Assembly (NCBI GenBank): GCA_003216615.1
Contig: QCIP01000001.1
Coordinates: 1-64,000 of the forward strand
Length of the DNA stretch: 64,000 nucleotides
Origin: Prochlorococcus sp. AG-402-M15
GTDB taxonomy: Bacteria; Cyanobacteriota; Cyanobacteriia; PCC-6307; Cyanobiaceae
Direction of reading: 5' to 3'
Below are positions 20,128 through 22,574 of the stretch, piece after piece; position 1 is the stretch's first letter; the number at the start of each line of letters is the position of its first letter. The notes beneath the pieces are model-generated. The model saw only the letters and a list, made by a program, of their open reading frames with translations, was not told the origin of the DNA and did no database searches. Made by a program: the position numbers and the translations under genes.

Positions 20128-21039
20128 ATGAATGTAAGTATTGTTATACCGACTTACAATAGACTACCTATATTAGAGAAATGTCTCGTTGCGCTTGAGA
20201 ATCAAAAATTAAATGCAAATATCACTAATTATGAAGTAATAGTAGTTGATGATGGATCCACTGATGGAACAAGCTCTTGGATAAATAAAAATAAAGCTAA
20301 TCTCCCACACGTAATTCTATTTCAACAAGAACATGGAGGCCCTGCAATGGGAAGAAATCTTGGGGTAATTAAATCAAAATATGAAATTATTATATTCATT
20401 GATAGTGATCTTATAGTTTTAGATAATTTTATAAATTGCCACGTAGAAAAATTGCTTGTCTCTTGGAGAAAAAATGATAAAAAATGTTTTACCTATGGTT
20501 CGGTGGTCAATACATCTAATTTTCTAAATCCTCAGAGTGAAAAACATAAAATTATGGATACTTCTTTTGCTTACTTCGCTACTGGGAATGTTGCGATATC
20601 AAAAGAATTGATTTTAAGCGTCGGTTTATTTGATACTTCTTTTAGTCTTTACGGCTGGGAGGATTTAGAACTTGGAGAAAGATTAAAAAAAATTGGGACA
20701 AAATTAATTAAATGTCCAAATGCAGTAGGTTTTCATTGGCATCCACAATTTAATTGCGAACAAATAGGATCATTAATAGCCCAAGAAAAAGAAAGGGCAA
20801 AAATGGCTTTAGTTTTTTATAAGAAACATCCAAATTTAAGGGTTAGATTTATGATTCAATTAACTCCTCTTCACAATTTACTTTGGCAAATTCTTTGCTT
20901 GGGAGGACTAATAAGTGTTGATAGAATCCTTCCTCTATTAAAATTTCTAGTAAATATAAGAAGAAATAGACTTGCACTTGAGATACTTAGGATCCCTCTT
21001 AATATGATTTACATTAAACAGTTAACCAAATCAAGATAA
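20128..21039 (+). CDS. Family 2 glycosyltransferase
   Basis: A 303-residue protein from the ATG at 20128 (an in-frame TTG at 20122 adds two residues). It shows a GT-A fold signature: VSIVIPTYNRLPILEKCLVA at the N-terminus, VVDDGSTDGT (nucleotide-sugar binding), the metal-binding DSD at 92-94, and the late acidic motif WEDLELGERL. The C-terminal hundred residues include amphipathic or hydrophobic segments (LHNLLWQILCLGGLISV) that may touch the membrane. It probably adds a sugar to a lipid or surface glycan. Neighbours give no substrate. Confidence 0.85.
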   Translation: MNVSIVIPTYNRLPILEKCLVALENQKLNANITNYEVIVVDDGSTDGTSSWINKNKANLPHVILFQQEHGGPAMGRNLGVIKSKYEIIIFIDSDLIVLDNFINCHVEKLLVSWRKNDKKCFTYGSVVNTSNFLNPQSEKHKIMDTSFAYFATGNVAISKELILSVGLFDTSFSLYGWEDLELGERLKKIGTKLIKCPNAVGFHWHPQFNCEQIGSLIAQEKERAKMALVFYKKHPNLRVRFMIQLTPLHNLLWQILCLGGLISVDRILPLLKFLVNIRRNRLALEILRIPLNMIYIKQLTKSR

Positions 21040-21092
21040 AAAACTTTTAGAAATACACATCACTTGCTAGAATTGTTGAAATTAAATCCACA

Positions 21093-21156
21093 CATCTGAC
21101 AGTTTCGGGTGATTTTTTAATATAAATTCCCCGTCAGATGGAGGCTAACCCGAAAC
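21093..21156 (+). ncRNA. Structured rpsB leader: perfect H-type pseudoknot (putative S2 autoregulatory element)
   Basis: Two perfectly complementary arm pairs are interleaved as A-B-A'-B'. A is CATCTGAC (21093-21100) with A' GTCAGATG (21133-21140). B is GTTTCGGGT (21102-21110) with B' ACCCGAAAC (21148-21156). This is an H-type pseudoknot with stems of 8 and 9 base pairs, ending 13 bases before the rpsB ATG at 21170. The leader is far richer in GC than the other spacers. A GGAGG at 21140-21144 sits between A' and B'. An alternative pairing of CGGG (21106-21109) with CCCG (21130-21133) could compete. Control by ribosomal protein S2 is inferred from position and from analogy with other ribosomal-protein leaders. 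Confidence 0.7.
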
Positions 21157-21169
21157 CCCTGGTTAAATT

Positions 21170-21874
21170 ATGGCTGTTGTATCACTATCTGAAATGATGG
21201 AAGCTGGTGCTCATTTTGGGCATCAAACTAGACGTTGGAATCCCAAGATGTCAAAGTATATATATTGCGCAAGAAATGGCGTTCATATTATTGATCTTGT
21301 AAAAACAGCATTGTGTATGAACAATGCTTATAAATGGACGAGAAACGCGGCAAAAAGTGGTAAACGTTTCCTATTCGTCGGTACAAAAAAACAAGCCTCA
21401 GATGTAGTAGCTCAGGAAGCTACTAGATGCGGAGCTGCTTATGTAAATCAAAGATGGCTTGGAGGTATGTTGACTAATTGGACAACAATGAAAGCTAGGA
21501 TTGAAAGATTAAAGGATCTAGAAAGAATGGAAAGTAGTGGTTCAATAGCAATGAGGCCTAAAAAAGAAGCTGCAGTTTTAAGGAGAGAACTTGAAAGATT
21601 ACAAAAATATTTAGGCGGACTTAAAGGCATGAGGAGATTACCAGACGTAGTTGTTTTGGTTGATCAGAGAAGAGAATCTAATGCAGTACTAGAAGCTAGG
21701 AAATTGGATATCTCATTAGTGTCAATGTTGGATACAAACTGTGATCCGGATTTGTGCGAGGTTCCAATTCCATGTAACGATGATGCCGTTAGATCTGTGC
21801 AACTTATTTTAGGAAGACTTGCAGATGCTATAAATGAGGGCAGAAAGGGTTCTAATGCCGAAAGAAAAAATTAA
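21170..21874 (+). CDS. rpsB: 30S ribosomal protein S2
   Basis: A 234-residue protein, complete. Landmarks are [19 protein letters not shown] near the start, [36 protein letters not shown] and [13 protein letters not shown]. It helps bridge the head and body of the small ribosomal subunit. It is followed 43 bases later by tsf, the standard bacterial rpsB-tsf pair. The structured leader upstream is the likely control point. Confidence 0.97.
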
Positions 21875-21917: not shown

Positions 21918-22574
21918 ATGGGAAACATTACAGCAAAACTTGTAAAAGATCTTAGAGACAAGACTGGCGCAGGAATGATGGATTGCAAAAAAGCACTTAA
22001 CGAAACTGACGGAAATGTTGATAAAGCTTTGGAATGGTTAAGAAAAAAAGGGATAGCTAGTGCAGAAAAGAAATCGGGAAGAGTTGCGGCTGAAGGTTCA
22101 ATTGGTAGTTATATTCATACTGGATCAAGAGTGGGAGTTCTATTAGAGTTAAATTGTGAAACTGATTTCGTTGCTAGAGGTGATATTTTTCAATCTCTGT
22201 TAAAGGACGTCTCAATGCAAGTAGCAGCCTGCCCAAATGTTGAGTATGTCTCAATTGATGAAATACCAGAAAATGTTGTGAAAAAAGAAAAACAGATTGA
22301 AATGGGTAGGGATGATTTATCTGGAAAACCAGAACAAATTAAAGAAAAAATAGTTGAAGGTAGAATAGCGAAAAGACTTAATGAGATGGTTTTGCTTTCA
22401 CAACCTTATATTAAAGATAGTTCTCTAACTGTTGAGGATCTCGTTAAACAAGCAGCTGCAAAAATTGGGGAAAATATCAAAGTAAGACGCTTTACAAGAT
22501 ATACTTTGGGTGAAGGTATCGAAAAAAATCAGATGGACTTCGCTGAAGAGGTTGCATCAATGCAATCAAATTAG
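21918..22574 (+). CDS. tsf: Elongation factor Ts
   Basis: A 218-residue protein. The N-terminal UBA-like domain contains [20 protein letters not shown], and the nucleotide-exchange core has [13 protein letters not shown]. The length is that of short cyanobacterial/chloroplast-type EF-Ts (one core subdomain). It recharges EF-Tu by promoting GDP release. It is transcribed with rpsB. Confidence 0.96.

Follow-up and report, generated by a model that had tools for sequence, protein, structure and literature searches.

The pseudoknot upstream of rpsB in Prochlorococcus sp. AG-402-M15 is probably a copy of the described rpsB leader motif

Introduction

Directly before rpsB in Prochlorococcus sp. AG-402-M15, two perfect stems have strands that alternate along the DNA, an arrangement that in RNA would form a pseudoknot. 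The original prediction, made from a stretch of 64,000 nucleotides of this genome (contig QCIP01000001.1, positions 1 to 64,000 of the forward strand; hereafter the window), held that this arrangement was very unlikely by chance and read it as an S2-responsive control element for rpsB-tsf of a kind apparently undescribed in picocyanobacteria. The locus raises two questions: whether the knot is real and, if it is, whether it is new. In short, the knot is real, conserved in the photosynthetic cyanobacteria compared and functional-looking, and it has already been described.

Results and Discussion

Architecture of the leader

All features described here lie on the forward strand. The letters and coordinates of the two stems match the original prediction exactly and are in A-B-A'-B' order. 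The first stem, P1, joins CATCTGAC (21093-21100) to GTCAGATG (21133-21140) in 8 bp, and the pseudoknot joins GTTTCGGGT (21102-21110) to ACCCGAAAC (21148-21156) in 9 bp; besides the letters themselves, P1 is assigned from the changes seen in class and family alignments, and the knot from anchored counts and the same alignments. Between P1 and the 3' strand of the knot lies a purine link, GAGGCTA (21141-21147), whose letters are conserved in family and class rows. Inside the long loop there is a third helix, P3 (21111-21128), which the original prediction did not mention. In the window it is a weak hairpin, GAUUU/AAAUU, that appears in the nested fold of the leader, is absent when the loop is folded alone and is worth +0.9 kcal/mol as a duplex, compared with -10.3 kcal/mol for P1 and -13.0 kcal/mol for the knot; it is stronger in many relatives.

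The knot ends 13 nt before the rpsB ATG at 21170, as predicted, and the intervening spacer (21157-21169) has no Shine-Dalgarno-like (SD-like) motif in a motif search of the family rows. The gene itself (21170-21874) encodes ribosomal protein S2, of 234 aa (TIGR01011, 326.2 bits, cut-off 76.3), and is followed by tsf, for elongation factor Ts (21918-22574; TIGR00116, 225.4 bits, cut-off 104.05). On the 5' side an open frame ends at 21039; it is glycosyltransferase-like, its matches to the listed families all falling below their cut-offs. The leader is also richer in G and C than its surroundings, as had been noted: the GC content of 21093-21156 is 0.422, compared with 0.308 in the window as a whole and, in the two spacers compared, 0.275 upstream (21040-21079) and 0.163 between rpsB and tsf.

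Chance expectation

Topology alone proved to be common. The window has five listings of perfect 8+9 interleaved stems of comparable span, which fall at four places, and 2500 dinucleotide-shuffled windows yielded 2170 such stem pairs, about 0.87 per window. In a separate run, 117 of 200 shuffles held at least one 8+9 interleaved pair, and when the 130-nt spacer was shuffled by itself 18 of 50,000 sequences did so. Since the topology is frequent in shuffled AT-rich sequence, it was rejected as proof of an element. The part of the improbability claim that stood concerns base composition: the stems of the rpsB leader contain 9 G/C, those at the other three places in the window 0 or 1, and a stem pair with at least 9 G/C was found in none of the 2170 shuffled cases, in which the maximum was 8, reached in 8 of them. 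The nested fold of the leader was unremarkable (z of -0.99, with 32 of 200 shuffles folding as well), as computed by a program that cannot score pseudoknots. Judged on the letters of the relatives, comparative evidence is the stronger argument for the reality of the knot.

Conservation and covariation among relatives

S2 genes were identified in 51 of the 61 genomes of the genus and in 286 of the 291 genomes of the phylum. We collected 157 rpsB upstream sequences (rows): 59 from the genus, 24 from other genera of the family, 64 from the rest of the class, hand-chosen from 104 genomes, and 10 from outside the class, out of 150 genomes. The last group (L148-L157) is excluded from all class counts. 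The 147 class rows reduce to 145 distinct ones. With a rule requiring both GGGTG and ACCC, 145 of the 147 could be parsed, and the two rows that it missed (L135 and L137) carry the variant TACGGGT/ACCCGTA. Two alignments were used for covariation. The first, A1, holds 50 of the 64 rows from outside the family, the 14 omitted having long or irregular loops or an odd link length, with one near-duplicate among them; the second, A2, holds 18 of the 83 family rows.

P1 is conserved and covaries. Each of its pairs is formed in 133 to 145 of the 145 distinct rows by MAFFT column counts, in which L135 and L137, whose P1 was misaligned by MAFFT, enter as unpaired cells. In A1 all 8 pairs of P1 have changed on both sides while 96.3% of cells are paired. 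The total covariation of A1 is 0.255, against 0.152 when shuffled (0 of 500 shuffles as high, a count that is not a probability because the shuffles keep the relatedness of the rows) and at most 0.097 when slid. Within the family, 3 of the 8 P1 pairs in A2 have changed on both sides; 16 of 500 A2 shuffles reach that number of both-side pairs and 38 reach the number of pair types, and these too are counts rather than probabilities, for the same reason.

The knot behaves differently. Its counts were anchored on ACCC, which is present after P1 in every one of the 145 distinct class rows; these rows also all have G-C at knot pairs 2-4. As the anchors GGGT and ACCC can themselves pair with one another, only the flanking knot pairs are independent tests. 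In the 81 distinct family rows, pairs 1-8 are always formed and pair 9 is formed in 80; in the 64 other class rows, pairs 1 to 9 are formed in 63, 64, 64, 64, 64, 61, 53, 35 and 15 rows, respectively. It follows that most other class rows have a knot of 7 bp, and the family one of 9 bp. Compensation outside the family is seen at pair 5 (CG in 61 rows, TA in 2, TG in 1) and at pair 6 (TA in 58, AT in 2). In A1, 4 of the 7 knot pairs are invariant and 1 has changed on both sides, and in A2 none of the 9 has. The strands are nearly invariant in the family, so the pairing is not independently proved there. Lack of conservation or covariation in related strains had been named as a result that would count against the original prediction; in the rows compared P1 covaries, and support for the knot is mostly conservation, with compensation rare.

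The remaining parts are shared as well. The link reads GAGGCNA in all 81 distinct family rows; in the other class rows GAGG opens it in 56 of 64, and it is 8 nt long in 60 of 64. At the position where a helix P2 could lie there is only a link of 1-2 nt in 138 of the 145 class rows. For P3, 83.4% of the cells in A1 are paired and 4 of 7 pairs have changed on both sides. A plain H-type knot with no further helices is ruled out, P3 being conserved in relatives.

In eight rows (L079, L092, L095, L098, L119, L127, L132 and L145) the loop that bears P3 has grown to 71-138 nt. P1, link and knot are still readable in these rows, and each is matched by the covariance model described below with E of at most 0.024.

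Searches with covariance models

From A1, and hence with no member of the window's own family, we built a covariance model, R1. In the genome of the window, R1 finds the rpsB leader with 58.2 bits and an E of 1.8e-9, and the next site has an E of 3.5; the leader is thus the only significant site. Across the 291 phylum genomes at an E of 0.01, 122 genomes were matched, with one match each: 12 of 13 in the genus, 9 of 24 in other genera of the family, 101 of 104 in the rest of the class and none of the 150 others. The single genus genome with no R1 match (G295) also has no S2 match. A point against the model is that 15 of 24 other family genomes were unmatched at this E. Strict filters lose weak matches, and direct reading of the letters shows the knot in each of the 24 rows from other genera of the family. 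Twenty matches were compared by eye with the positions of rpsB, and all 20 adjoin it.

Outside the photosynthetic class, R1 matched 1 of the 10 upstream sequences (L148, 24.3 bits, E 0.0049) and, with the strict filters, none of the 150 genomes.

The Rfam models reach this leader less well. RF00127 (t44), the family located at the E. coli rpsB leader (tff), matches the window over its full length with 28.7 bits (E 1.8e-4 over 201 bases), which is below its curated cut-off of 44 bits, and a genome scan with strict filters gave no RF00127 match at E of 1 or lower in any of the 291 phylum genomes, the window's own included. RF01815, which from its name and subject we take to derive from Meyer et al. 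(2009), reaches its cut-off in none of the 40 class genomes examined. Among genomes with a mapped rpsB, its matches lie at rpsB in six (G065, G093, G102, G114, G269 and G338) and away from it in two, G096 and the window's own genome (G000), where the sole match has an E of 0.42. The two Rfam entries appear to describe one leader. Because the Rfam cut-offs are not reached, we file the element under the published rpsB motif and not under RF01815 or RF00127. A class-wide model such as R1 would annotate the leader in class genomes that remain below those cut-offs, as did every class genome examined here.

Interpretation as a probable S2 leader

We consider it highly probable that the window holds a copy of the rpsB motif acting as an autogenous leader that limits the synthesis of S2. 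The original reading of a structured rpsB-tsf leader is upheld in that a structured leader is present, probably transcribed whole given the promoter box discussed below, and most likely responsive to S2. We infer the following course of events. Free S2 in excess of 30S subunits, perhaps together with S1 as in E. coli, would bind a surface formed by P1, the link and the knot. Binding would stabilise the knot; with 13 nt between its 3' strand and the start codon, the stabilised knot would keep a 30S subunit from settling on the rpsB start, so that expression of rpsB and of the downstream tsf would fall together. In a lineage that lacks SD sites the blocked step would likely be the loading of a 30S subunit, assisted by S1, on the unpaired spacer. 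The operator of E. coli is reported not to include the ribosome binding site (PMC10931766), and direct blocking is therefore not established even there.

A different function for the same structure would be that of an mRNA-stability or ribosome-standby element with no response to S2, conserved because it enhances translation at a constant level. Conservation of structure by itself names no ligand, and our search of the accessible literature found no S2-binding or reporter data for cyanobacterial rpsB leaders. The parts and their order are, however, those of the E. coli leader, for which repression by S2 is reported (PMC10931766), and the element occurs once per matched genome, adjoining rpsB wherever the two were compared; we regard a structure indifferent to S2 as unlikely.

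Much the same low probability attaches to the idea that the picocyanobacterial leader is a two-state switch that works with no SD site. According to this proposal the 5' strand of P1 (CAYYY) would pair with the 5' strand of the pseudoknot (GGGUG) in the nascent transcript, to the exclusion of both final helices, and would later give way to P1 and the lengthened 9-bp knot, which by itself would close an S1-dependent entry site. Such a nascent hairpin can be drawn in the window (21093-21099 with 21105-21111), at -5.4 kcal/mol, far weaker than P1 or the knot. Of 143 class rows (L135 and L137 being excluded from this count), 142 have it with at least 5 contiguous pairs, and in 135 of the 143 it closes the minimum-energy fold of the nascent stretch. 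These counts are given little weight, since substitutions at P1 positions 1-5 stay within purines or within pyrimidines, so that the nascent pairing would persist without any selection for it; its conservation follows from like-for-like changes alone.

Another second state had been suggested by the original prediction, a competing pairing of CGGG with CCCG. It exists in the letters, and its GGG/CCC part appears in the nested minimum-energy fold of the window leader. Of the 57 distinct rows of the genus, 54 have it, against none of the 24 from other genera of the family and none of the 64 from the rest of the class; as a conserved feature it was rejected.

Translation start

In the 18 nt directly before rpsB, AGGA, GGAG and GAGG are absent from all 83 family rows. 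In the other class rows a script found an SD-like motif there in 62 of 64, and the two exceptions, L135 and L137, have AGGAG once a shifted start is allowed, which brings the number to 64 of 64. These members of the class keep AGGAG or a similar motif shortly 3' of the knot. Among the rows compared, two traits thus mark the family: a knot of 9 bp instead of 7, and the loss of the SD site. The loss is not special to rpsB, because tsf likewise lacks an SD site in all 58 family loci. This, together with the published statement that Prochlorococcus is probably not dependent on SD sites and may employ S1 (PMC5607370), makes the loss look like a trait of the lineage and not of the rpsB operator. The same operator with and without an SD site offers a natural contrast for asking how repression by S2 works.

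We also considered that the conserved GGAGG at 21140-21144 might serve this lineage as its ribosome binding site, with the folded knot placing it close to the start codon. This is the sole SD-like motif in the window leader, and the family rows that lack an SD site near the start preserve GAGGCNA throughout. The same GAGG is nevertheless present in the 56 other class rows noted above, which have SD sites of their own, and in the E. coli leader; with the loss of SD extending to tsf and Prochlorococcus probably independent of such sites (PMC5607370), we judge this role very improbable.

Probable transcription of the leader

The S2-leader reading calls for the knot to be on the transcript. An extended -10 element, TGCTAGAAT (21065-21073), precedes P1 in the form TGnTAnnnT, and its spacing from P1 is kept: the distance from the end of this element to P1 is 18-20 nt in 59 of 59 genus rows. 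All 24 other family rows have the element 18-23 nt before P1, as do 52 of the 62 other class rows parsed for promoter counts (out of 64); within 15-32 nt it occurs in 57 of these 62, the other 5 having none there. Among 725 six-nt bins taken 40-69 nt upstream, none contained TGnTAnnnT. A promoter scan gave TTTAGA-16-TAGAAT with a TG, one of 3 promoter-like sites where 1.0 were expected. Transcription would then start near 21080, and the fixed spacing of the promoter box implies that the whole knot is probably transcribed. A mapped rpsB transcript start was not found in our literature search, which included the accessible part of PMC5607370.

Transcription attenuation, in which the knot strands or an alternative 5' hairpin would form a terminator before rpsB, is hardly credible: 47 of 57 distinct genus rows have TTTT no more than 12 nt after the knot, and in the window the 7-pair hairpin of 21093-21111 is followed by six T, with five T after this hairpin in 4 more of the 57, yet the window itself has no TTTT after the knot (CCCTGGTTAAATT), TTTT follows the knot in 0 of 24 other family and 1 of 64 other class rows, and the 5' hairpin is followed by at most 3 consecutive T in 52 of 57 genus and 24 of 24 other family rows. 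An attenuator as a general feature was rejected on these counts.

Comparison with known leaders

The expectation that such a leader is undescribed in cyanobacteria did not survive the literature. Meyer et al. (2009; PMC2704228) present the rpsB motif, with its pseudoknot, as occurring in Cyanobacteria among others, and state that P2 is absent or very short there. The window agrees with the motif in its P1, its P3 hairpin, the absence of P2 and its place directly before rpsB, and in a pseudoknot that joins the P2/P3 junction with a 3' extension after P1. Taken feature by feature, the element stands in the rpsB 5' leader, 13 nt from the gene and with a promoter box upstream; it has a long P1 that covaries at 8 of 8 pairs; knot pairs 1-5, between junction and 3' extension, are formed in 63-64 of 64 rows outside the family and in 81 of 81 within it; and P3 is present, if weak in the window, with P2 absent or very short. 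The knot as published (PMC2704228) is of about 5 bp, compared with 7 in most other class rows and 9 in the family. The knot is a described S2 leader and hence ordinary, and the prediction of a new element was a false lead, corrected here: the knot is a regulator of a known kind.

Other accounts touch the same leader. Voss et al. (2009; PMC2662882) list as cluster 394 a "possible rps2 5'UTR" or "rps2 leader", predicted to be conserved in two cyanobacteria, which from the order of the table would be Synechocystis and Microcystis; the gene is the same, and a pseudoknot is not mentioned in the accessible part of that paper. An element named "rpsB RNA" appears in PMC6429828, t44 RNA is listed before rpsB of Shewanella in PMC2659441, and the accessible part of PMC7247131 gives no cyanobacterial rpsB leader.

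The contrast that the original prediction drew with gammaproteobacteria was wrong, because the E. coli leader follows the same plan, with its parts in the same order. In E. coli, S2 represses rpsB-tsf and S1 is needed (review PMC10931766, which cites Fu et al. 2013, Aseev et al. 2008 and Mustoe et al. 2019). R1 matches the E. coli leader over its full length with 18.7 bits, at an E of 0.00055 over 401 bases and of 0.098 over 71 kb; the latter value means that the model alone is no proof of homology, to which the shared order of parts and the shared letters add. Before rpsB, E. coli has a P1 of 8 bp (CACGTATC/GATACGTG), then an 8-nt link, GAGGCATA, and then a 5-bp knot in which GGGGU/ACCCC replaces the cyanobacterial CGGGU/ACCCG. 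The letters in common, a comparison chosen here and not taken from PMC2704228, are the GGAGG of the link, AACCC and GGGUG. E. coli differs in a further long helix around GGGUG in the t44 consensus and in having more letters between the knot and the start. Since the regulator is known and its plan is common to cyanobacteria and E. coli, the window calls for annotation and not for a new class of element.
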